From positions 1-38,884 of the forward strand of contig JAFYDI010000090.1 in NCBI GenBank assembly GCA_017544835.1: a DNA stretch of 38,884 nucleotides, given 5' to 3'. This document shows, piece after piece, positions 10,080-26,626 of this stretch. Both the position numbers and the translations under genes were made by a program. This stretch comes from Lachnospiraceae bacterium (GTDB lineage Bacteria; Bacillota; Clostridia; Lachnospirales; Lachnospiraceae). How positions within the stretch are numbered: the stretch's first letter is position 1; each line of letters starts with the position of its first letter. The notes under the pieces are model-generated. The model did not search any database. It was not told the DNA's origin and was given only the letters and a program-made list of their open reading frames with translations.

Positions 10080-10760
10080 TTAAAGTTCCTCGGTGGAACT
10101 TGATACTCTTGCGCACAGCACCGGAAGGTTGCCGTTACGTACGCGAATTTCGTCTATAAGTTCTTTTTCCTTGCTTTCGTCTTTAAGTCTGATGCGGTAA
10201 GACACTTCAAACATGGATCCTAAATTCGTAGTCTTAACCTTTTCAATCGATACTTCGCTTAATAATTTCTCGAATAAATCGTCAAACATTCCGCTGTAGT
10301 TAAGGTTCTCGGGAATAGTAACCTTCAAATTCTTGCAGCCTGCGTTGTTGCCACCGAAGTTAGACTTCGAAAGCACAATGTATAAAAGTGCCACGACTAC
10401 GGTTACAATTGCCGCAAAGCCTATATAACCCATACCGGTAGCAAGGCCTACAGTCATGGCAAAGAATACCGCGCCTATCTCTCTTGCGCTTCCTGCCGCG
10501 CTCCTGAATCTGATGAGGCTGAACGCGCCCATGATAGCTACGCCAGTTCCCAGGTTTCCGTTTACCATCATTATTACAGCCTGAACAAGAATCGGCAATA
10601 CCGCAAGTGTTACCACGAAGCTTTTGGAATACTTGTCGCTGCAATACATGTAGCAGGCAGCTATTGCAATTCCTAACACCAGCGATACTATAGTGCACAG
10701 TGCCATCGATCCCATATCAAGTGAAGTTGTAGTTGTAGTTTCCAATATACTTGTAAGCAT
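10080..10760 (-). CDS. DUF4956 domain membrane protein
   Basis: This 226-aa protein has four predicted membrane helices in the first 125 residues (for example MALCTIVSLVLGIAIAACYM and AVIMMVNGNLGTGVAIMGAF) followed by a soluble C-terminal domain. The AFSLIRFRSAAGSAREIGAVFFAM stretch (positions about 79-102) is characteristic of DUF4956. The family is often found next to VTC-domain proteins. The start overlaps the VTC gene by 44 bp but has its own AAGGAGG site, so its translation need not depend on coupling. No enzymatic function is established. It may form a membrane partner for the VTC protein, by analogy with yeast Vtc complexes. Confidence 0.85.
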   Translation of the reverse strand: MLTSILETTTTTSLDMGSMALCTIVSLVLGIAIAACYMYCSDKYSKSFVVTLAVLPILVQAVIMMVNGNLGTGVAIMGAFSLIRFRSAAGSAREIGAVFFAMTVGLATGMGYIGFAAIVTVVVALLYIVLSKSNFGGNNAGCKNLKVTIPENLNYSGMFDDLFEKLLSEVSIEKVKTTNLGSMFEVSYRIRLKDESKEKELIDEIRVRNGNLPVLCARVSSSTEEL

Positions 10761-11487
10761 TTTTGTGTTCCTCCTTATTGAGTTCTGAGTTTCTTTTTGC
10801 GTATGCCGAGTACAAATTCATTGCCTCGGCATACTTGGAAAAAGAATGAGGGTATATATTAAGTTCCGTTAAAGCATTGGTGAGCCACAAGGGCATGTTT
10901 CCGAGAACTTTTATCTCCATGAGATATTCGTTCTTTCGGGTAATAGGCTTATCTACGCTTGTTTCAAGCAGATTCTTTTTATTGAATGCTGTTCGTAAGT
11001 TGGCGTCGAAGGTGATTCGAAGCTCCTTGTCTTCTCTACCGAACATTGCCATGCGGTCGTAAGCGATAAGGGTTCCGGTCTCGGGGTGATTCATAATTAA
11101 GAAGTAATCAATTTCCCTAAGTATCTGTGAATCGTACTTTTCGGGGTAGATTCCTCTTTCTAAGTAATCCGAAGCTACTTTAATGGGAAGCGATATTCTT
11201 CTTTTGTATACGACTCCATCGTACTTCTTCTTAAGTTCCAAGAATACCGTCGAGTCCTCGGTAATGTTGCCATAAGCTCTGAGTCTTAACTTTTCCTTGT
11301 ACACCGGCTTCTCCATCGATGTTCTTATTAAATCGTAGTTGGCGGTGTCGTAATATATGCTTGAAATGGTACTGAGACCATATTCATCAACCTGCATGTA
11401 CGGCTCGAGCTTAATTCTTAAAGCATCGTATTGTTCCTTAGTCAGCAAATATTTAATTTCAACTCTTTCAAAAATGTTTCCTGCCAT
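10717..11487 (-). CDS. VTC-domain protein (polyphosphate polymerase-like)
   Basis: This 256-aa protein is a VTC domain of the triphosphate-tunnel superfamily. It begins FERVEIKYLLTKEQYDALR, with the ExK-type motif, and continues with ISSIYYDT, KEKLRLRAYG, FLELKKKYDGVVYKRRI and a late YLMEIKVLGNMPLWL. These Lys/Arg/Glu strands line the tunnel in yeast Vtc4, which polymerises inorganic polyphosphate from ATP. The protein is cytosolic. Activity in the bacterial proteins is inferred from the fold, and some members may bind rather than make polyphosphate. It is the first gene of the VTC-DUF4956-DUF4353 operon. Confidence 0.87.
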   Translation of the reverse strand: MAGNIFERVEIKYLLTKEQYDALRIKLEPYMQVDEYGLSTISSIYYDTANYDLIRTSMEKPVYKEKLRLRAYGNITEDSTVFLELKKKYDGVVYKRRISLPIKVASDYLERGIYPEKYDSQILREIDYFLIMNHPETGTLIAYDRMAMFGREDKELRITFDANLRTAFNKKNLLETSVDKPITRKNEYLMEIKVLGNMPLWLTNALTELNIYPHSFSKYAEAMNLYSAYAKRNSELNKEEHKNAYKYIGNYNYNFT

Positions 11488-12454: not shown

Positions 12455-13003
12455 TCATTCGCCTTTCTGTGGCTTGGATGCTGCATATGAAACACACAAA
12501 AGTGTTCCGACCACCGCTGTCGCCACCGCATTGGCGGCCGCGCAGAACGCGCCTTGCGTAAACGCCTCGCCCGCCGGCTCCTTGTACACAAGCACATCAA
12601 GTATCGGTGCAAGTACCATCCACGCCAGCACATGTATCAGAATCTGCGAAGCATTAAAATAGATAATCGCTTTCTTTTCAAACTCGCCGCTTTCCATATG
12701 AATCTTTAGCGCGGCCAATCCCATCACCAGTCCGAAGAACGCCGATGCGCCGATCCAGCTCCACCAGATTGTAGAACCGTCAGCAAGATGCTTGGTAAAA
12801 TCGATAAAGAAATGACCTATAAGTCCCGTAAAGAATCCCGCTATCGGTCCAAACAGCACCGACACAAAAGCAAGCACACCATACTGTATGGAAATAGTAG
12901 TATCAGGAATCGGACTCGGAATCGAAACAAATCGTCCCAAAACAAAGAACAATGCAGCCCCCACTACAATCGCCACAATCGTCTTAACAGAAAACTTCTT
13001 CAT
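12455..13003 (-). CDS. ECF transporter S component, UPF0397 family (riboflavin-type substrate binder)
   Basis: This 182-aa membrane protein matches the UPF0397 group annotated as ECF-type riboflavin transporter S components. It begins MKKFSVKTIVAIVVGAALFF, then VLGRFVSIPSPIPDTTISIQ, then FGPIAGFFTGLIGHFFIDF, and has five to six hydrophobic helices. S components capture a vitamin and dock with a shared energising module of two ATPases and an EcfT subunit. None of these is nearby, so it would rely on a housekeeping module elsewhere. I chose the ATG at 13003, preceded by GAGGTGAG; the upstream extension has no ribosome-binding site. No FMN riboswitch is visible upstream, so the substrate is uncertain. 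Confidence 0.85.
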   Translation of the reverse strand: MKKFSVKTIVAIVVGAALFFVLGRFVSIPSPIPDTTISIQYGVLAFVSVLFGPIAGFFTGLIGHFFIDFTKHLADGSTIWWSWIGASAFFGLVMGLAALKIHMESGEFEKKAIIYFNASQILIHVLAWMVLAPILDVLVYKEPAGEAFTQGAFCAAANAVATAVVGTLLCVSYAASKPQKGE

Positions 13004-13103: not shown

Positions 13104-14363
13104 TCAGTATACCGCCTTGAATATTTCCACCAGAGCATCAAACGCAGGCTTGGGATTATTATCCTTATCAAAGAGTCTTGCATTCGTCTTATCGCCCTCA
13201 GTGTAATGGTCCTTAAGGCCAAAGAAAGTCACACTCGTAATATTGCAGTTTCCGCCACCCTGAGTATCCAGTCCCTTTAAATACATAAAGATGTTCTTAT
13301 AGCGCTTAGCCTGCTTTTCAAACTCTTCGGGAGTCTCCTCGTCAACGCCTACAGAAAGCTCTGTAATCTGAATCTCCACATCAAGCTTTGAGAACATCTT
13401 AATGGTATCCACAATCGTAGTTGTGTTGGGATAATCAAGTCCCCAATAGCCCTGCATGCCGATACCGTCGATTAAGCCTTTAGCCTTCAAGTCTTCGCAA
13501 AGCTTATAAATATAACTGCGCTTTAAGGACTCGTAAGTATTAAAGTCATTATAGAAAAGCTTAACATCCGCATCCGCATACTGCCTTGCAAATCGGAAAG
13601 CCGCCTCCACATACTCGGGTCCGATGGTCATATACCAGGGATTCTCCTCGCCACCGTTTTCCGTACGGCACATAAAGAAGCTGTCCTTGTCGCCCTTGTC
13701 GGGATCCACCGCTTCATTAACTACATCCCAGCAATAAATTACTCCCGGGTAATTGGTCTGCACATGCTCAAGCACCTGCTTGATATAACTCTCCATGCGG
13801 GCCAGCATGGTTTCTTTGTCCACGTACTTACCGTCATCTTTGTAGCCCTCGCGGAAAAACCATCCGGGCGCCTGCGTATGCCACACAAGCGTATGACCGC
13901 GCATCTTCACACCATTGTCCATACACCACTGAAGCGTGTCATCAATCGTCGTGAAATCAAGCACCGGCATCCCGTCTTCGCTCGACTTGCTCTCCTCCTG
14001 CTTAAGAAGATAACAGGACTTCATAAGGTTCGACATCGTCACGCTGTTAAAATGCTTCTTAACAAGCGCCATATATTCCTCATCGTAGGTGGTCAGGTTC
14101 TCAAGGGTGCTGCCGTTGATGCCCACACCCAATAAGAAGTAGTCGGCACAACCGTCCTTAAGCGCGAAGTCTTCTTCTGCCTCGGGCTCCTCTACGCTTG
14201 TCGGCTCCACCGATTCGGTCTCGGGTTCCGCGCTTACAACCTGCTCCTCTTCAACTGTCGATACGCTCTCCGAGCTCACTTCATTACCGGTGCATGCGGC
14301 TTGCAAAAGAAAAAGCCCCGATAAACCGATAATTGCTATAGTTTTTACTAACTTTTTAAACAT
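13104..14363 (-). CDS. GH10 endo-1,4-beta-xylanase, lipoprotein
   Basis: This 419-aa enzyme hydrolyses internal beta-1,4 links of xylan by a retaining mechanism. A signal peptide ends at lipobox LQAAC (Cys24). A Glu/Ser/Val-rich linker follows to about residue 65, and the GH10 barrel occupies about 70-419. Catalytic acid/base is Glu217 in WDVVNEAVD and the nucleophile is Glu335 in EIQITEL; HTLVWHTQAPGW (157-168) is the usual beta-3 region. There is no carbohydrate-binding module. Lipid anchoring suggests it trims oligosaccharides at the cell surface. It has its own strong promoter (14403-14431) and an AGGAAA ribosome-binding site, and is transcribed separately from the hipBA region. Confidence 0.95.
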   Translation of the reverse strand: MFKKLVKTIAIIGLSGLFLLQAACTGNEVSSESVSTVEEEQVVSAEPETESVEPTSVEEPEAEEDFALKDGCADYFLLGVGINGSTLENLTTYDEEYMALVKKHFNSVTMSNLMKSCYLLKQEESKSSEDGMPVLDFTTIDDTLQWCMDNGVKMRGHTLVWHTQAPGWFFREGYKDDGKYVDKETMLARMESYIKQVLEHVQTNYPGVIYCWDVVNEAVDPDKGDKDSFFMCRTENGGEENPWYMTIGPEYVEAAFRFARQYADADVKLFYNDFNTYESLKRSYIYKLCEDLKAKGLIDGIGMQGYWGLDYPNTTTIVDTIKMFSKLDVEIQITELSVGVDEETPEEFEKQAKRYKNIFMYLKGLDTQGGGNCNITSVTFFGLKDHYTEGDKTNARLFDKDNNPKPAFDALVEIFKAVY

Positions 14364-14466: not shown

Positions 14467-14496
14467 AAAAAAAGATGTAGTCGAAACTACATCTTT
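14467..14496 (-). terminator. Terminator hairpin of far tRNA 3' remnant (copy A)
   Basis: Arms 14471-14481 and 14486-14496 form a perfect 11-bp stem (AAAGATGTAGT) with a 4-nt loop and T tracts on both strands, seven Ts on the minus strand. It could stop transcription in both directions, insulating the xylanase from hipBA. Confidence 0.8.
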
Positions 14497-14509
14497 TTAA
14501 GCAGCTGAT
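14467..14509. repeat. Direct repeat copy A: terminator plus 8-9 bp of tRNA-Glu 3' end
   Basis: This 43-bp segment matches 16362-16404 at 40 positions. It consists of a terminator hairpin and then AAGCAGCTGAT, whose minus strand ATCAGCTG is the acceptor-stem 3' strand and discriminator of the tRNA-Glu at 17256-17327. Identity stops right after GCTGAT. It looks like a decayed or very short displaced tRNA 3' end marking the left border of the hipBA segment. Confidence 0.65.
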
Positions 14510-14549
14510 GCGTTTATATTCTCTTTGCTCTAAAGTCAAGCGCATTTAT

Positions 14550-14565
14550 GTTTGATATATTTGAC
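14550..14565. promoter_or_regulatory. Upstream HipB operator-like palindrome (O1)
   Basis: This 16-mer differs from the perfect palindrome at 14581-14596 at three positions. The two are 31 bp apart, three helical turns. It overlaps the -35 element of the hipBA promoter. It probably binds the HipB dimer cooperatively with the downstream site. Confidence 0.55.
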
Positions 14566-14589
14566 AAATCTTGCTTTATGGTTTAATAT
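14561..14589 (+). promoter_or_regulatory. hipBA promoter
   Basis: A consensus -35 TTGACA (14561-14566), a 17-bp spacer and -10 TAATAT (14584-14589) lie 23 bp before the hipB start. Both core elements are overlapped by operator-like palindromes, as expected for an autoregulated toxin-antitoxin promoter. Confidence 0.82.
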
Positions 14590-14596
14590 ATTAAAC
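14581..14596. promoter_or_regulatory. Perfect palindromic HipB operator (O2)
   Basis: GTTTAATATATTAAAC is a perfect 16-bp palindrome that covers the -10 element. XRE-type antitoxins bind such symmetric sites as dimers and repress their own operon. Its position gives a direct steric block of RNA polymerase. Confidence 0.75.
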
Positions 14597-14612
14597 GTAA
14601 GAGGATGAAAAC

Positions 14613-14927
14613 ATGAGTAAAAAGACAACTATTGTATTTCCGGACACACAAAGAATACTTGAAAACATGGGTGAACAGATTAAACTGGCAAGGCTTCGCA
14701 GAAATCTATCCGTAGAACTTGTCGCCGAACGCGCCGGAATCAGCCGGGCAACTTTATGGGCTGTTGAGAAGGGCACTTCAACCGTAGCTATAGGTACATA
14801 TGCCGCGGTGTTACATGCCCTTGGCGGAATGGACAAAGACTTGGCGCTTATTGCCAAAGATGATGAATTTGGGCGAAGAATTCAGGACTTAAATCTTACT
14901 ACACCCAAAAGAGCAAAGCGAAAGTAG
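14613..14927 (+). CDS. hipB: HipB-family antitoxin, XRE-type HTH
   Basis: This 104-aa protein has an HTH_3/XRE domain at about 20-76: GEQIKLARLRRNLSVELVAE, then RAGISRATLWAVEKGTSTV as the recognition region. A basic tail (TTPKRAKRK) follows. It would bind the two palindromes in its promoter and sequester HipA. The short N-terminal extension (residues 1-18) precedes the HTH. The ATG has AGAGGATG upstream. It is followed by hipA after 7 bp, so the two form a single operon. The gene is a little more AT-rich than the housekeeping genes around it. Confidence 0.9.
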   Translation: MSKKTTIVFPDTQRILENMGEQIKLARLRRNLSVELVAERAGISRATLWAVEKGTSTVAIGTYAAVLHALGGMDKDLALIAKDDEFGRRIQDLNLTTPKRAKRK

Positions 14928-14934
14928 GCATTAA

Positions 14935-16197
14935 ATGGATACTTTAAATGAAATATATGTATATGAAAATTGGAAATCAGACACACCTTCTTTAATCGGA
15001 ACGCTGTATACAGAGGGTGGCAAGGGCAAGCAGGTTGTTTCTTTTGAATATGACGATGAATGGCTCAAAGACTTAAGCAACAATGTTTCTCTTGATCCTG
15101 ATTTAGGAATGTATAAAGGCCGCCAGTATGTTCCCGCAGACAAGCTGCTGTTTGGCGCATTTGAAGACTCATGCCCTGACAGATGGGGACGTTTGCTTAT
15201 GAAGCGGCGTGAAGCCATACTTGCCAGAAAGGAAGAAAGAAAGCCTAAAAATCTCACCGAAGCAGACTTTTTAATAGGCGTCTATGATGAAACGCGAATG
15301 GGCGGTCTTAGATTTTCAGCATCAAAAGGTGGCGAATTTCTATCCTCTGATAAAGAGTTGGCCACTCCGCCGTGGACTACTCTCCGTAAGCTTGAATCCG
15401 CATCATTGGCCTTTGAGAAGAACGATGACGGATTGGAAGAAAAATGGTTGAAGCAATTAGTTGCTCCCGGATCTTCACTTGGCGGAGCAAGACCTAAAGC
15501 TTCAGTTGTAGCACCTGACGGTTCTTTATGGATAGCAAAATTTCCTTCAAAGAATGATGAAATAAATGTCGGTGCATGGGAAATGGTAGTTCATGACCTC
15601 GCCATTATGTGTAATCTTAACGTCCCGGAGGCCAAGCTTGAGGACTTTTCCAAAAATGGCAGCACATTCATTACCAAGCGTTTTGACAGAGCAGGTGATA
15701 GAAGAATTCACTTCGCTTCTGCCATGACTTTACTCGGTCGTAACGACGGGGACGATTCATCATCGGGATTAAGTTATCTTGATATTGCATCTGTTATTAG
15801 AATGCGCAGTGTTACGCCCGATAAGGATACCCATGAGTTGTGGAAACGAATAGTGTTTAACATGGCCGTATCCAATACAGATGACCATCTACGAAATCAC
15901 GGTTTTCTTTTGGCCAAGGATGGGTGGACTCTCTCTCCTGTATATGATGTTAACCCCAATGTTTACGGCGATGCCTTATCGCTAAATGTAGACTCGAATA
16001 ATAACGTGATTGATTTCAATCTGGCACTGTCTGTTTCAAAGATGTATGGAATATCTGCAGAAAAAGCAAAGGAAGGAATAAAAGAAATATCAGGAACAGT
16101 TGAATCGAACTGGAAACGTATAGCCAAGCAATATGGAATCAGCAGAGGCGAGATTGAACAGATGGCTCCTGCGTTCGATATGGCATATAAATCATGA
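14935..16197 (+). CDS. hipA: HipA-family serine/threonine kinase toxin
   Basis: This 420-aa protein contains the N-terminal HipA subdomain (about 8-110) and the kinase-like C-terminal part. Visible motifs: the flexible Gly loop SSLGGARPKAS (180-190), in which Ser181 aligns with the autophosphorylated Ser150 of E. coli HipA; the ATP-binding Lys in WIAKF (202); the catalytic loop NTDDHLRNHGF (314-324) with predicted catalytic Asp316 and Asn321; and the metal-binding YDVNPN (337-342). All key residues appear present, so it should be an active kinase. E. coli HipA phosphorylates GltX, glutamyl-tRNA synthetase; the target here is unknown. It ends before a strong terminator. Confidence 0.93.
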   Translation: MDTLNEIYVYENWKSDTPSLIGTLYTEGGKGKQVVSFEYDDEWLKDLSNNVSLDPDLGMYKGRQYVPADKLLFGAFEDSCPDRWGRLLMKRREAILARKEERKPKNLTEADFLIGVYDETRMGGLRFSASKGGEFLSSDKELATPPWTTLRKLESASLAFEKNDDGLEEKWLKQLVAPGSSLGGARPKASVVAPDGSLWIAKFPSKNDEINVGAWEMVVHDLAIMCNLNVPEAKLEDFSKNGSTFITKRFDRAGDRRIHFASAMTLLGRNDGDDSSSGLSYLDIASVIRMRSVTPDKDTHELWKRIVFNMAVSNTDDHLRNHGFLLAKDGWTLSPVYDVNPNVYGDALSLNVDSNNNVIDFNLALSVSKMYGISAEKAKEGIKEISGTVESNWKRIAKQYGISRGEIEQMAPAFDMAYKS

Positions 16198-16223
16198 GCA
16201 AAATAAACTTACTGTAAAAAAGG

Positions 16224-16255
16224 GACTTGTCACAAAAACTGTGATAAGTCTTTTT
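16224..16255 (+). terminator. Intrinsic terminator of hipBA
   Basis: GACTTGTCACA (16224-16234) pairs with TGTGATAAGTC (16240-16250), 11 bp with one G-U, around a 5-nt loop and is followed by TTTTT. It lies 26 bp after the hipA stop. Confidence 0.9.
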
Positions 16256-16360
16256 CTTATTATGAAATTTTTGTTCCAATCTGCATTTTTTTCATGCAGT
16301 ATAGATTTCATAACTTGTAGCACCCTTGCCTGCACCCATTGCTGCCCGGATTCAAACAAC

Positions 16361-16390
16361 AAAAAAAAGATGTAGTTGAAACTACACCTT
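16361..16390 (-). terminator. Terminator hairpin of near tRNA 3' remnant (copy B)
   Basis: On the minus strand AAGGTGTAGT pairs with ACTACATCTT (10 bp, one G-U) and is followed by eight Ts. The same hairpin in copy A has a Watson-Crick pair where this one has G-U, so pairing in the minus-strand transcript is kept. This indicates it served as a tRNA terminator on that strand. Confidence 0.75.
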
Positions 16391-16404
16391 CTTAAGCAGC
16401 TGAT
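16362..16404. repeat. Direct repeat copy B
   Basis: This 43-bp segment matches copy A at 14467-14509 with three substitutions. Its right end runs directly into a longer copy of the tRNA-Glu 3' end. Copies A and B flank hipBA in direct orientation, 1,895 bp apart. Confidence 0.8.
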
Positions 16405-16432
16405 AGGGGAATCGAACGAAGATTACCCTATC
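16396..16432. other. att-like site: displaced tRNA-Glu 3' end with inverted half-sites
   Basis: Bases 16396-16417 are identical to 17255-17276, the acceptor 3' strand and T-arm 3' half of tRNA-Glu. Past the identity, CCCTATC (16426-16432) mirrors GATAGGG (16402-16408), and AA/TT extends the symmetry with one mismatch. The result is two inverted half-sites around about 11 bp. This is the geometry of core-type sites bound by tyrosine recombinases that use tRNA T-arms. It marks the end of an element that entered the tRNA gene. Confidence 0.65.
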
Positions 16433-16469
16433 GAAAAGCCGCATAAATCCAGTGTTTTCACTAATATCT

Positions 16470-16488
16470 TGGTCCACCTGTGGTCCAC
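16470..16488. repeat. 8-bp direct repeat, possible arm-type site
   Basis: TGGTCCAC occurs at 16470-16477 and 16481-16488, an 11-bp period. With the flanking G each copy is close to the palindrome GTGGTCCAC. Paired short direct repeats near an att core are typical of integrase N-terminal-domain (arm) binding sites; that reading is inferred. Confidence 0.5.
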
Positions 16489-16574
16489 TAAAATAAAAGG
16501 AAAGGAAAACAATATCTTAACTACTCTTCTAAAGAAGAGTAATACCTCTTCGTACAGCCCAATAATATATCCAA

Positions 16575-17048
16575 TTATTTCTTATTCAAATATTCTTGTT
16601 TGAACAAAACCTCATCAACATAGCAAATAGCTTTCTTAACATCAGCAGTTATATTTTTGCCTATAGATTGATACCTGTTATCAAATACGTTCCTTAGCCA
16701 GCTCATAAAATAATTCTGATTATCTTTTATAAAAGATTCATCAATGGTGCGTATGGCGATAGAGGCATATTTTATATCATCATCCGACAAATCTGCACCT
16801 ATTTCTTTCAATTTCAAAAAAGAATCTCTGAATTCCTTCTTCTTTTGAAACGCCCACGACCCTGTATCCTTTAATTCTTCTCTGTATATTGACTGCTCTA
16901 TCCGCCTTTTTACATGGTCTTTGGTGCTTCTCAACCCATTCATATTTTCAATTGAAAAGCCATGTGTATTAATCAAAAAGTAGAACAACGGCAAATTTCT
17001 TGCCTGAGAGTTGATTATAAATTTAATATATTCCGTGCTATCAAACAA
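16575..17048 (-). CDS. Hypothetical protein in the att-bounded segment, possibly 5'-truncated
   Basis: I do not recognise this protein. The 157-aa reading begins at TTG (17046-17048) with AGGAG only 3 bases upstream, an unusually tight spacing. The same frame stays open for another 22 codons upstream (to 17114), reading plausible protein such as LNVFNKGIECFIHQEK, without any ATG or GTG. So either the TTG is the real start or the gene has lost its beginning. The protein is Lys/Asp/Glu-rich and mostly helical, with no membrane segment or known motif. Base composition is more AT-rich than the neighbours, consistent with horizontal origin. Confidence 0.55.
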   Translation of the reverse strand: MFDSTEYIKFIINSQARNLPLFYFLINTHGFSIENMNGLRSTKDHVKRRIEQSIYREELKDTGSWAFQKKKEFRDSFLKLKEIGADLSDDDIKYASIAIRTIDESFIKDNQNYFMSWLRNVFDNRYQSIGKNITADVKKAICYVDEVLFKQEYLNKK

Positions 17049-17131
17049 TTTCTCCTGATGTATAAAGCACTCTATCCCTTTGTTAAAAACATTTAAGTCC
17101 TTTATAGACTCAGATTACTATTATACAAATC

Positions 17132-17174
17132 AAAAAAGACTACGAAGCACAGATTAAATCTGCTATCGTAGTCT
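17132..17174 (-). terminator. Intrinsic terminator without an assigned gene
   Basis: On the minus strand the 9-bp perfect outer stem AGACTACGA/TCGTAGTCT (17166-17174 with 17137-17145) encloses a bulged inner stem and is followed by six Ts. No ORF lies between it and the tRNA-Glu terminator 52 bp away, so it may end a small RNA, be a backup tRNA terminator, or act as a leader of the downstream ORF. Confidence 0.75.
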
Positions 17175-17189
17175 ATCCATTATCTATTG

Positions 17190-17221
17190 TTGGTCGACCA
17201 AATGATCTCCTCGACCAAATG
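17190..17221. repeat. Palindrome and 11-bp direct repeat beside tRNA-Glu
   Basis: TTGGTCGACCAA (17190-17201) is a 12-bp perfect palindrome. TCGACCAAATG occurs exactly at 17194-17204 and 17211-17221, a 17-bp period. It lies on the element side of the tRNA 3' end, so like the repeat at 16470-16488 it may be a recombinase or excisionase binding site. Confidence 0.5.
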
Positions 17222-17225
17222 CAAT

Positions 17226-17251
17226 AAAAAAACCCTTGATTTACAAGGGTT
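17226..17251 (-). terminator. Terminator of tRNA-Glu
   Basis: On the minus strand AACCCTTG and CAAGGGTT form an 8-bp stem with a 5-nt loop, followed by TTTTT. It begins 5 bases after the tRNA 3' end. Its sequence differs from the terminators attached to the two displaced tRNA 3' copies. Confidence 0.88.
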
Positions 17252-17255
17252 TGCG

Positions 17256-17327
17256 CAGCTGATAGGGGAATCGAACCCCTGTTTCCGCCGTGAGAGGGCG
17301 GCGTCTTAACCGCTTGACCAATCAGCC
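17256..17327 (-). tRNA. tRNA-Glu (anticodon CTC)
   Basis: This is a 72-nt cloverleaf without encoded CCA. Acceptor stem GGCTGAT/ATCAGCT has a terminal G-U pair, as is usual in tRNA-Glu, and discriminator G. D-arm loop contains GGTCAAGCGGTTAAG. The anticodon stem CCGCC/GGCGG holds loop CTCTCAC, so the anticodon is CTC, decoding GAG. T-arm is AGGGG-TTCGATT-CCCCT. It is an isolated single tRNA gene with its own promoter (17359-17387) and terminator (17226-17251). Its 3' end is the source of the duplicated sequence at 16396-16417. Confidence 0.96.
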
Positions 17328-17332
17328 ATGAT

Positions 17333-17356
17333 ACAAGCGCTCTCGCGAGCACTTGT
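17333..17356 (-). promoter_or_regulatory. Hairpin between the tRNA-Glu promoter and the tRNA 5' end
   Basis: On the minus strand ACAAGTGCTC and GAGCGCTTGT form a 10-bp stem (one G-U) capped by GCGA, a GNRA tetraloop. It ends 5 bases before the tRNA 5' end. It could guide 5' processing or be an operator; no T-run follows it. Confidence 0.5.
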
Positions 17357-17358
17357 AT

Positions 17359-17387
17359 ATATTATCGTATGTTACAGGAAATTGCAA
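17359..17387 (-). promoter_or_regulatory. Promoter of tRNA-Glu
   Basis: On the minus strand, -35 TTGCAA (17382-17387), 17-bp spacer, -10 TAATAT (17359-17364). It lies about 32 bp before the mature tRNA 5' end. Confidence 0.6.
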
Positions 17388-17413
17388 GTACTTTTTTAAA
17401 TTTTATTGAAGCA

Positions 17414-22030: not shown

Positions 22031-25000
22031 TCACACTTTCATCATATCGAAAATACTTATTTGGTCTGTTTCCGGAATTGATCCCAAAATACCCAATTCA
22101 CCGAGTTTATCGGCAATAGTCTGCGACACATGTGCTCTTGACTTAAAGTCATCCTTGCTTGTAAAAGGTCCTACCTTGCAGGCTTCCACTATCGAATCTG
22201 CCGCGTTTTCACCAAGACCGTCTATGCTGGTAAAAGAAGGCATAATCTTATTGCCGACTATCGAAAAGAGTCTTGCCTTGGCCGTAAATAAGTCTATGGG
22301 CTCAAACTCAAAGCCACGCGCATACATCTCCTGCACGATACGCATATCTCTGATAGCGTCTTCGTCCTTGGGCGAAGGATTCTCAAGGTTTCTAAGCCTG
22401 TTAAGCTCTTCCTCAAGTCGCTCGCGACCAAAGCACATCGTAGCGTAGTTAAACGCCTTGGCTCTTATGGAAAAGAAAGCGGCATAATAAGCCAAAGGAT
22501 AATAAACCTTACAATAAGCGATACGCCATGCCATCATAACGTAAGCTGCCGCATGGGCTCTCGGGAACATATACTTAATCTTCTGGCATGACTCAATATA
22601 CCACTCGGGAACGTTGCAGGCGCGCATGTCTGCTTTCCATGCTTCCCACTTATCGCACTTGCCGGCCGCTACCTTACCCTTACGAACCATTTCCATAATC
22701 TTAAATGATTCCTCGGACTCAACGCCCATGTTGATAAGGTAAGTCATAATATCGTCACGGGTGCATATTGCGGTTGAAATAGTCGCTATACCGTCACGGA
22801 TAAGGTCCTGCGCGTTGTTAAGCCATACGTCGGTACCATGTGACAGACCTGCGATACGAATAAGGTCTGAGAAATACTTAGGCTTAGCTTCCTGAACCAT
22901 GCCCATGGAGAAGTCCGTACCAAACTCGGGAACGCCTAAGCATCCTATCTCTACTCCGCCGATATCGGAAGGCTTCACGCCGAGGGCTTCGGTTGATTCA
23001 AACAACGACATAACCTTAGGGTCGTCAAGCGGTATGGTTAAAGGATCGATACCCGTCAAATCCTGAAGCATACGAATCATCGTAGGATCATCGTGTCCGA
23101 GTATATCAAGCTTAAGTAAGTTATGGTCGATTGAGTGATAGTCAAAGTGTGTGGTTATAATATCTGTCTCGGTATCATTGGCGGGGTGCTGTACAGGGGT
23201 AAAAGAATTGATATCCTCACCCACGGGAAGCACGATAATACCGCCCGGGTGCTGACCCGTACTGCGGCGCACTCCCACGCAGCCTTGAACTATGCGGTCT
23301 ATCTCGCAGTTTCTTTTGCTGATACCTTTTTCTTCGTAGTATTTCTTAACGTAACCGAAGGCGGTCTTGTCGGCAAGAGTTGCGATGGTTCCGGCGCGGA
23401 AGGTCTGGCCGGCACCGAAAATTACTTCTGTGTATTTGTGAGCCTTGGACTGATACTCACCCGAGAAGTTTAAGTCGATATCGGGCTCCTTATCGCCCTT
23501 AAATCCAAGGAATGTTTCGAAAGGAATGTCGAAGCCGTCTTTCTTAAGTTTCTCTCCGCAGACGGGGCAGACTCTGTCGGGCATATCGACACCCGCCATA
23601 CCTCTAAACTTCTTAACCTCTTCGGAGTCAAAGTCGTAGAAATGACACTTCGCGCAGTAGTAGTGAGGTACCAGAGGATTAACCTCTGTAATACCCGCCA
23701 TGGTAGCCACAAAGCTTGAACCTACGGAACCCCGGGAACCTACGAGGTAACCGTCCTCGACAGACTTCCACACGAGCTTCTGGGCTATGATGTACATTAC
23801 GGCGAATCCGTTGGTGATAATTGAGTGAAGCTCACGCTCAAGACGCTCCTTAACTATCTCGGGAAGGTCAGGACCGTACATTTCATGGGCCTTGTTATAA
23901 CAGATGGTAGTAAGTATCTCGTCGGAATTCTCGATGACCGGAGGACACTTGTCGGGACGCACGGGGGACATGGACTCTATCTGATCGGCTATCATGTTGG
24001 AGTTGGTCACTACAACTTCCATAGCCTTGTCGCGGCCGAGGTAACCGAATTCCTCAAGCATCTCGTCGGTGGTGTGAAGATACAAAGGTGCCTGATTGTC
24101 GGCATCTTCAAAGCCCTGACCCTTCATGATGATACGTCTGTATATCTCGTCTTCTGGGTCAAGGAAGTGTACGTCGCAGGTAGCCACAACAGGCTTGTTG
24201 TAGACTTCACCGAGGCGCACTATCTCACGGTTTATGTTAAGAATGTCTTCTTCGGAATTAACGTTTTCAATCTTCTCATCTCTTATCATGAAAGCGTTGT
24301 TGCCGCGGGGCTGAATCTCAAGGTAGTCATAGAAATTGACTATTCTTGCAATCGTCTCATCGCTTCTCTCATCTAAAATCGCGCGATACAATTCACCCGC
24401 TTCGCAGGCACTGCCGATGATAAGGCCTTCTCTGTGCTTCATAATCTCGCTCTTAGGCATACGGGGACGCTTCGCAAAATAATCAAGGTGAGACTTGGAA
24501 ATAAGGGTATACAAATTAACTCGCCCGGTATTGTTCTTGGCAAGTATGATTACGTGATGGGTAGGAAGCTTCTTGATAACATCTGCCGAAACCTTGGTGC
24601 CTTCGTTGATGTCATTCATTGTGGCGAAGCCCTTTTCGCGGCACATCTTAAGTAACTTTATGAACGCGCCACCCGTAGCGGTAGCATCGTCAACAGCTCT
24701 ATGGTGTGTGATAAGGGTTACATTGAGTTCCTTACAAATTGTATCGAGCTTAAAATTGTGAAGCTTGGTCAGGAAATGCCTCGAAAGTCCAAGCGTATCC
24801 ACGCAGGTAAAGTCATAAGGTAATCCCAGTCTCTCGCAGTTAGCCTTGATAAAAGAAGTATCAAAGGTCGCATTGTGAGCAACAAGTATAGTACCCTTAC
24901 AAAACTCCAGGAACTTAGGCAGTATCTCTTCTATCGTGCCCGCATCCTTAACGTGCGCATCGGTAATGGTGGTAAGCTTCTGAATACGGTAAGGAATAGG

Positions 25001-26626
25001 AATCTCGGGATTGACAAACTCCGAGAACGTATCCGTAATCTCACCGTTTACTACCTTAACGGCACCGATTTCGATTATCTTATTCTTGGTAGCCGAAAAG
25101 CCTGTGGTCTCTATATCAAATACCACATAGTCGCTGTCTATGCTCTGGTTCTTAGAGTCAAGAACGGTCTCGATAAGGTCATCAACAAGATATCCCTCTA
25201 CGCCGTATATTACCTTAAAGAAGTCCTGCTTGTTGGGATTCTCGTCGCCGGCTTCGATTCTCTTTGCTTTTTCCTTCTTCCATAAATCTTCCCAGGTGTG
25301 ATTGGCATCGGGGAATGACTGAACTACGCCGTGGTCGGTAACAGCTATGGCTTTATGCCCCCAGGAATATGCACGCTTAACAATGTCCGACACCTCGCTG
25401 ATTCCGTCCATATCACTCATCTTAGTATGACAGTGAAGCTCAACTCGTTTAACGGGCGCAGTATCGACTCTGCCACCGGTTCTGAAGTCCTTACCTACCA
25501 TAACGGACTTAGGTGATGTTACGGAAAGCTCATGGTCAAACTTATCCTCCTGAGGCACACCCATTACGCGCACAAACTTACCGGGTGAAAGCTTGTCCAT
25601 ATAACTCGGCGCTTCCTCTGTAAGGCAGAAGAACTTAACCTTAATCGTATCCGTAAAGTCGGTTACGTTAAAAGAAATAATACTTCTGTTACCGCGTATA
25701 TCACGCTGCTCATTGGCAATAACCTTGCCTCTGAAGACTACGGTTGTAAAGTCTTCCACAAGGTCTTCTATCTTCGTAAATTCTTCTTCATCACTTATCT
25801 CGCCGCCGAATATTACATCGGGATTATCAGATTTCTCAGTGGCGCGGGGCTCACGTTTCTTAAACTCTTTCTTGAAGCCGCCTTTTTCGTATTTCTTCTC
25901 AAACTTCTTGCCTGAGTCGGAGCCGGACTTGGAAGCGGCTTTTTCTTTTTTCTCGGGTGCCTTGGCAGTTTCAGTCGGTTGTGAAGCGCCTTCCCTTGTA
26001 GTTGCCGGCGCACCCTCCTCATCCTTCTTAAGACTCTCAACATTGATGCGGCTTTCCACAAGCTTAGCAATCTTGTACTCGTCCCACTTGGTGCGCTCAG
26101 TCACATCGCCTGTTTCTTCGTGTCTGTAAGTTACGGTAAATAAAGCATCCGAAAGGTTAAACCTCTCGCATACCACTTTCCTGAAATATTCAAGTACTTC
26201 GCTTTCGCGTTTCTTGATAATCTCCGAATCCGGAAGAGAAAGCTCGATGTGATTCTTGTCAACTTCTGTAATCTCGGCTTTCTTGACTGTATTAAAAAGA
26301 ATGGGGCTAGTCTCTGAAAGTTCGTCGAAAATACTGTCCTTGTACTCATCGATAAGGCTGCTTACAGTGTAGCTTTCAGGCAGATGATAGTCCTCGATTA
26401 TATAGATTTCCATATTGACACCCGCAAACATCTGCTTGCGGATTTCTTTGATACAGGAATAGATATCCTTCTTGGGAATGATATGATTGCTCGAAATATA
26501 AATCTTAAGAACATCTCTGCGTTTATTGGAGGATACCTTGGTGACTGTCACCTCGTCAAACATATCCCTTAAACCGCTCTTTAATTCAAGAGTCTTAAAT
26601 ACTTCCAAAAACGCTTTCGGTTCCAT
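22031..26626 (-). CDS. polC: DNA polymerase III alpha subunit, Gram-positive PolC type
   Basis: This 1531-aa replicative polymerase has an N-terminal region (1 to about 250) including a charged low-complexity stretch (about 205-260). An OB-fold follows (about 285-370), then a PHP domain beginning at HCHTKMSDMDG (near 396). The DnaQ-like 3'-5' exonuclease with DIETTGF (near 500) is inserted within the PHP, the defining PolC layout. The palm contains EPDIDLNFSGEYQ (near 1050), and a C-terminal HhH segment contains GLGENAADSIVEAC. It synthesises chromosomal DNA with a built-in proofreader. It is slightly longer than B. subtilis PolC (1437 aa). It begins 3 bp after ispG, as in the usual Firmicutes cluster. 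Confidence 0.97.
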   Translation of the reverse strand: MEPKAFLEVFKTLELKSGLRDMFDEVTVTKVSSNKRRDVLKIYISSNHIIPKKDIYSCIKEIRKQMFAGVNMEIYIIEDYHLPESYTVSSLIDEYKDSIFDELSETSPILFNTVKKAEITEVDKNHIELSLPDSEIIKKRESEVLEYFRKVVCERFNLSDALFTVTYRHEETGDVTERTKWDEYKIAKLVESRINVESLKKDEEGAPATTREGASQPTETAKAPEKKEKAASKSGSDSGKKFEKKYEKGGFKKEFKKREPRATEKSDNPDVIFGGEISDEEEFTKIEDLVEDFTTVVFRGKVIANEQRDIRGNRSIISFNVTDFTDTIKVKFFCLTEEAPSYMDKLSPGKFVRVMGVPQEDKFDHELSVTSPKSVMVGKDFRTGGRVDTAPVKRVELHCHTKMSDMDGISEVSDIVKRAYSWGHKAIAVTDHGVVQSFPDANHTWEDLWKKEKAKRIEAGDENPNKQDFFKVIYGVEGYLVDDLIETVLDSKNQSIDSDYVVFDIETTGFSATKNKIIEIGAVKVVNGEITDTFSEFVNPEIPIPYRIQKLTTITDAHVKDAGTIEEILPKFLEFCKGTILVAHNATFDTSFIKANCERLGLPYDFTCVDTLGLSRHFLTKLHNFKLDTICKELNVTLITHHRAVDDATATGGAFIKLLKMCREKGFATMNDINEGTKVSADVIKKLPTHHVIILAKNNTGRVNLYTLISKSHLDYFAKRPRMPKSEIMKHREGLIIGSACEAGELYRAILDERSDETIARIVNFYDYLEIQPRGNNAFMIRDEKIENVNSEEDILNINREIVRLGEVYNKPVVATCDVHFLDPEDEIYRRIIMKGQGFEDADNQAPLYLHTTDEMLEEFGYLGRDKAMEVVVTNSNMIADQIESMSPVRPDKCPPVIENSDEILTTICYNKAHEMYGPDLPEIVKERLERELHSIITNGFAVMYIIAQKLVWKSVEDGYLVGSRGSVGSSFVATMAGITEVNPLVPHYYCAKCHFYDFDSEEVKKFRGMAGVDMPDRVCPVCGEKLKKDGFDIPFETFLGFKGDKEPDIDLNFSGEYQSKAHKYTEVIFGAGQTFRAGTIATLADKTAFGYVKKYYEEKGISKRNCEIDRIVQGCVGVRRSTGQHPGGIIVLPVGEDINSFTPVQHPANDTETDIITTHFDYHSIDHNLLKLDILGHDDPTMIRMLQDLTGIDPLTIPLDDPKVMSLFESTEALGVKPSDIGGVEIGCLGVPEFGTDFSMGMVQEAKPKYFSDLIRIAGLSHGTDVWLNNAQDLIRDGIATISTAICTRDDIMTYLINMGVESEESFKIMEMVRKGKVAAGKCDKWEAWKADMRACNVPEWYIESCQKIKYMFPRAHAAAYVMMAWRIAYCKVYYPLAYYAAFFSIRAKAFNYATMCFGRERLEEELNRLRNLENPSPKDEDAIRDMRIVQEMYARGFEFEPIDLFTAKARLFSIVGNKIMPSFTSIDGLGENAADSIVEACKVGPFTSKDDFKSRAHVSQTIADKLGELGILGSIPETDQISIFDMMKV

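Follow-up and report, generated by a model that had tools for sequence, protein, structure and literature searches.

Displaced tRNA-Glu 3' ends beside a hipBA operon point to successive integrations at one tRNA gene in a Lachnospiraceae bacterium

Why does an intact hipBA toxin-antitoxin operon lie between two detached copies of the 3' end of a single tRNA gene? The question is raised by a stretch of 38,884 nucleotides from a Lachnospiraceae bacterium, a rumen-type gut bacterium (assembly GCA_017544835.1, contig JAFYDI010000090.1, forward strand; the whole stretch analyzed is referred to as the window). An initial annotation, made from the DNA letters alone, had ascribed the arrangement to successive integrations at one tRNA-Glu gene. 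The comparisons with relatives described below support this proposal. Small integrative elements have probably been added one after another at the 3' end of the tRNA-Glu gene, which would have served as their attachment site, most likely through repeated use of this end by tyrosine recombinases.

The presumed integration target, an intact tRNA-Glu(CTC) gene, occupies positions 17255-17327 of the reverse strand according to ARAGORN (17256-17327 with the Rfam tRNA model). Directly behind it on the same strand is a terminator hairpin (type C, 17225-17254; folding energy -11.7 kcal/mol), which can be aligned in relatives. Two displaced tRNA 3' ends are found farther out, also on the reverse strand. 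Copy B (16396-16417) reproduces 22 bp of the tRNA end exactly and is followed by a hairpin at 16362-16395; copy A (14501-14509) comprises 9 bp and is followed by a hairpin at 14467-14500. A 43-bp direct repeat (14467-14509 and 16362-16404), identical at 40 of its 43 positions (93%), takes in the final 9 bp of the tRNA together with the terminator hairpin. Repeat comparison and folding show that hairpins A and B are near-identical and that the hairpin behind the intact tRNA differs from them. The intact tRNA, its two displaced ends, their shared hairpin and the differing terminator behind the tRNA had been listed in the initial annotation and were confirmed with ARAGORN, Rfam, repeat comparison and folds.

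The repeats stand well above chance. The longest exact repeat between positions 13000 and 19000 is 22 bp, compared with a maximum of 16 bp in 300 simulated sequences of the same composition, and the best 43-mer match has 40 identical positions, compared with at most 30 in 60 simulations. In the host genome, a 2.87-Mb draft in 121 contigs with a contamination estimate of 3.61%, the hairpin pattern (up to two mismatches) has no reverse match and just two forward matches, copies A and B; with the reversed control pattern, one match was obtained. A dispersed terminator element was ruled out, as the hairpin occurs at two places in the whole genome and both are here. The tail pattern also matches twice in this genome, at copy B and at the tRNA itself. 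The 9-bp tail AAGCAGCTGAT, with one mismatch allowed, is present three times in the window against a mean of 0.78 expected, which alone is not significant; it counts as a tail because it lies in register within the 43-bp repeat. The tRNA likeness of copy B ends within the T-loop portion, and that of copy A ends, with a sharp break, only 9 bp from the tRNA end; either tRNA stretches of unequal length were used in the two events or copy A has eroded. Terminators of a similar general kind follow intact tRNA-Glu genes in two other genomes of the genus (G017 and G003), and the likeness of terminators A and B implies that the terminator brought in by the first element closely resembled the one already present.

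The tRNA-proximal segment (16396-17276) is well supported as a decayed integrative element. At its far border the tRNA 3' end is repeated directly and exactly over 22 bp, and the segment is AT-rich, with a GC fraction of about 0.35 versus about 0.45 around it. The initial annotation held that no integrase remains at the site. This has to be corrected, as about 70 bp of the 3' end of a tyrosine-integrase gene, shifted in frame, lie beside the tRNA at 17114-17185 on the forward strand and point at it. Positions 17108-17409 of the window match the DNA of two relatives at 86-88%, namely G013, judged to be Lachnospiraceae bacterium YSD2013, and G001, judged to be Lachnospiraceae isolate RGIG7866 from water buffalo reticulum. 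In both relatives the homologous stretch reaches into the end of an integrase gene fragment; that of G013, which is longer than the trace in the window, has a Phage_integrase match in Pfam (E=3.6e-13). Identification of the integrase in the window rests on this DNA alignment because the trace is too short for a protein search. The segment also contains a 157-aa open reading frame (ORF; 16575-17048, reverse strand) without a Pfam match in the family profile scan. It is related (25% identity in 166 aligned columns) to the C-terminal part, residues 293-454, of a 458-aa protein in another locus (L075), in which Pfam places an SLFN_AlbA_2 domain at residues 48-181; the AlbA_2 part is missing in the window.

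A hairpin of the form GAYTACGA...TCGTARTC (17145-17180) overlaps the integrase 3' end in the window and in its counterparts in G013 (twice), G001, G011 and G016, and a run of T follows it on the strand that reads the tRNA. At one position of the stem, three of the aligned sequences have a C-G pair and the other three T-A. This variation suggests that a second terminator may have been preserved inside the integrase gene end.

Both ends of the segment carry putative recombinase arm-type repeats, a function suggested by the sequence and motif counts. The tRNA-proximal end (17190-17221, no strand assigned) has the palindrome TTGGTCGACC and two copies of TCGACCAAATG; the distal end (16469-16488, likewise unstranded) has TTGGTCCACC, and TGGTCCAC twice. 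Within the window, TTGGTCSACC is confined to position 16469 and the palindrome at 17190-17201, which holds two overlapping matches, giving three matches against 0.13 expected. In G013, a different motif, TTGATTGACY, is restricted to the vicinity of both ends of the island described below (three matches against 0.17 expected). The end motifs look like candidate arm sites that differ between elements.

The same site was followed in relatives, using a genus sample of 18 genomes, host included. The tail pattern (up to one mismatch) is present in 14 of these genomes; the four without a match (G004, G008, G010 and G015) are only 62-85% complete. Fifteen tRNA-Glu loci, one of them from another genus, were fetched, and PolC was found in nine of the 15, the polC gene (22031-26626 in the window, reverse strand; Pfam, NCBIfam) serving as the marker of the orthologous tRNA. 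On the other side, the neighbor of the tRNA in uninterrupted relatives is a gene with a VTC domain (10717-11487, reverse strand; Pfam and positions in relatives). The gap between tRNA and VTC gene is short in three genomes (42 bp in G014, 164 bp in G009 and 190 bp in G002), which is read as the uninterrupted state. In the window it measures 5767 bp, and in four further genomes 1052 bp (G016), 5537 bp (G001), 6358 bp (G012) and 14649 bp (G013). Part of the length of the wider gaps is unconnected to the tails; two genes, one of 156 aa and one for an ECF transporter, are common to the window, G001 and G013. A GH10 glycoside hydrolase gene (13104-14363, reverse strand; Pfam) is common to the window and G013, with 92.6% protein identity. 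A second copy of the GH10 region is present elsewhere in the host genome (L031, G000:C33:1-4000), with 78% DNA identity over 1016 bp.

Displaced tails are present in two of the 18 genomes, the host and G013, both at this locus; G016 does not add a third because its two matches are whole tRNA genes, situated on different contigs. A tail search allowing up to five mismatches in 14 fetched loci returned only tRNAs and the G013 tail. In G013, the order from the GH10 gene to the tRNA is a displaced tail with one mismatch in 22 and an old integrase-end remnant, a type I restriction system with HsdM, HsdS and HsdR domains, an integrase fragment and the intact tRNA. The G013 tail retains about 26 bp of the tRNA. 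This tail with its restriction island and the variable tRNA-VTC segment in relatives support the successive integrations that the initial annotation proposed, the locus being polymorphic among relatives and the repeats not dispersed. An integrase 3' end adjoins the tRNA in G001, G011, G013 and G016.

Two further observations concern the contents of this site. Two more proteins are encoded in the G013 island (L022, 3654-14283), one of them SEC-C/NERD-like, the other a second specificity-like product. In G016, a genome with a contamination estimate of 6%, a 1.05-kb insert with an integrase-end trace lies between the tRNA and the VTC gene (L203, G016:C368, 2261-3312); it contains what appears by eye to be an N-terminal fragment of HsdM, and a Fic gene (PF02661) is on the other side of the tRNA.

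The position of the integrase end relative to the tRNA was also surveyed in 36 related integrase loci, comprising 20 of the many family matches and 16 from the genus; the loci of the site itself were left out and one more was dropped for lack of a match. A convergent tRNA lies 97-233 bp beyond the integrase match in 16 of the 36 loci, 14 of these being among the 20 best family loci, and a tRNA on the same strand in none. At L067 (G215:C38), one of the 16 and from another genus, the integrase C-terminal match is 97 bp from a tRNA-Glu(CTC). The genome of L067 also has a HipA homologue with 78% identity on a different contig. A close full-length integrase was sought in the genus; besides the fragments at the site in G013, G001 and G011, the matches are weak (best E 1.4e-8).

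The first segment (14510-16361) holds the hipBA operon on the forward strand. The hipB antitoxin gene (14613-14927, 104 aa) has a helix-turn-helix (HTH) domain in Pfam and a match to TIGR03070 (couple_hipB) below cut-off; the hipA toxin gene (14935-16197, 420 aa) matches HipA_C (E=4.9e-50) and Couple_hipA (E=9.8e-5), and both frames are intact. Attachment-like 43-bp repeats form both borders, only 9 bp of each being tRNA, and the stretches that separate the operon from them measure just 35 bp and about 165 bp. Judged by its gene content, the hipBA segment is bracketed like an element and holds nothing able to move it.

The operon is rare in the genus. Within the sample, hipA was detected only in the host, that is, in one of the 18 genomes and one of the six with a completeness of 90% or more and a contamination of 5% or less; some HipA match is found in 82 of 250 sampled family genomes. 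The four closest homologues outside the genus, at 73-80% identity, belong to four other genera, where DNA likeness of 70-72% is limited to 14545-16195; the four hipBA loci yielded no tRNA. These homologues share the operon only, and a donor could not be named from them. A contig from a viral collection (L205, IMGVR_UViG_3300038673_000675) carries a HipA relative with 63% identity and several ORFs that by eye resemble large serine recombinases; no tRNA was found on it. Among solved structures, a search at E<=0.001 returned only three distant HipT-like chains for HipA, the best being HipT(Lp) (E 7.3e-7). A link between HipA and glutamyl-tRNA synthetase (GltX) at a tRNA-Glu locus, raised and called unsupported in the initial annotation, is still unsupported.

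From the repeats, terminators, integrase trace and polymorphism in relatives, which are observed directly, we infer the recombinase action, the order of events and the role of hipBA as follows. Each integration would give the tRNA a new 3' end and terminator and push the old tail with its terminator outwards. Initially the tRNA would have been followed by terminator A. Tail A would then have been left by an element with the 43-bp repeat at its borders, the interval between which is now occupied by hipBA, and tail B by a second element with a tyrosine integrase. A later deletion may have cut the second element to 0.86 kb, sparing a Schlafen/AlbA_2-type gene fragment and the integrase 3' end. 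The hipBA operon may have been cargo of the first element or a later arrival; it is intact, has a promoter region of its own and probably persists as addictive or protective cargo.

Several points weigh against this history. Neither an intact element nor an excised form was found, and the empty site predicted in the initial annotation, with the tRNA body joined to terminator A, was not seen among the 18 genus genomes, a sample without other strains of the host species. The viral contigs contain no exact 22-bp tail and no relative of the integrase fragment. A protein search of the host genome with the G013 integrase fragment yielded one match, located elsewhere (C102). The end motifs were picked after inspection of the sequences; in G001 only the tRNA side has its motif, and behind the tRNA of G016 (L024) there is a similar one, with the integrase trace absent from the aligned stretch. 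The hipBA interval has no integrase, hipB and hipA being the sole Pfam-supported genes among those scanned, and its ends share no motif of at least 8 bp. The lack of a shared motif is weakly informative because an 8-mer is shared between the ends in 307 of 500 shuffles.

These last two features of the hipBA interval also fit an explanation that, though the less probable one, has to be considered seriously, namely that only the tRNA-proximal segment is an integrase product and that the 43-bp repeat came to surround hipBA by another route, either homologous recombination with DNA of a relative bearing the same terminator or insertion of hipBA into an older scar. The four other genera, which share the hipBA unit (14545-16195) and no detected tRNA, are consistent with it. 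Against it, the 43-bp repeat ends inside the tRNA and closely brackets hipBA, as attachment sites do, and the terminators in G017 and G003 show that this general type can stand behind an intact tRNA-Glu. An old duplication of tRNA-Glu and terminator, with the extra copies decayed to tails and hipBA and the ORF as unrelated insertions, is very unlikely. It would account for the near-identical terminators of copies A and B, but the tRNA likeness of tail B stops exactly after 22 bp, ARAGORN detected no tRNA body at either tail, which speaks against decayed whole tRNA copies, and the integrase trace and the G013 island would have to be coincidences. An assembly or binning artefact, conceivable in a draft of many contigs with some estimated contamination, is more improbable still, given that both flanks match G001 and G013 at 85-91% DNA identity and that G013 independently shows the same kind of structure on a 194-kb contig.

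Successive integration at the tRNA 3' end is thus retained as the preferred reading. A more speculative extension, to which only a small probability is given, is that hipBA is a minimal, recombinase-free passenger that may be moved between tRNA-Glu sites by integrases of other elements using the same tRNA, its toxin discouraging loss of the array. In that case, defence and addiction genes would be traded within the genus through the tRNA-Glu/polC locus as a common landing site. At this locus, insertions into a single chromosomal site can be put in a dated order, relatives showing the site empty, half-decayed or filled, and toxin-antitoxin and restriction genes are seen to turn over at the same tRNA. 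It also provides a small testable case of whether an integrase-free operon can be moved by its neighbors.

The general mechanism is well known, and the site is a clear new example of it; a narrow literature search found no report on tRNA-Glu integration or a genomic island of this kind in Lachnospiraceae. The operon itself resembles type II HipBA toxin-antitoxin systems in gene order, the HipA_C kinase gene lying downstream of a predicted antitoxin gene with an HTH domain. The HipA protein is distant from the solved chains of its family mentioned above, and its toxin kinase activity is a prediction. Among the published cases compared, two systems are closest to the whole arrangement. In Shewanella putrefaciens CN-32, the island CGI48 at tRNA-Trp is composite, with GI21 inside it; in GI21, hipAB lies next to one of the two attachment sites, which are only 9 bp long, and a type I restriction system is present as well. 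Both islands encode working integrases and excise (PMC8978831). The tRNA-gene site, the hip operon by an attachment site and the 9-bp inner sites are alike in the two cases. CGI48 and GI21 are nested and functional, whereas the segments here are tandem and decayed, and hipBA has no integrase. In Dehalococcoides, several islands are stacked downstream of one RNA gene, ssrA, with displaced copies of its 3' end between them, and some islands without an integration module are discussed as possible cis-mobilizable elements (PMC3146451). Those islands involve a serine recombinase, a tmRNA target and reductive-dehalogenase cargo; here a tyrosine-integrase trace, tRNA-Glu and cargo of toxin-antitoxin or defence type are found. 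Like the cis-mobilizable elements and the accretion described there, the hipBA segment has attachment-like repeats, no recombinase of its own and a neighboring element at the same site. It differs from them in that the integrase of the neighbor is itself broken here, and mobility conferred by it is putative.

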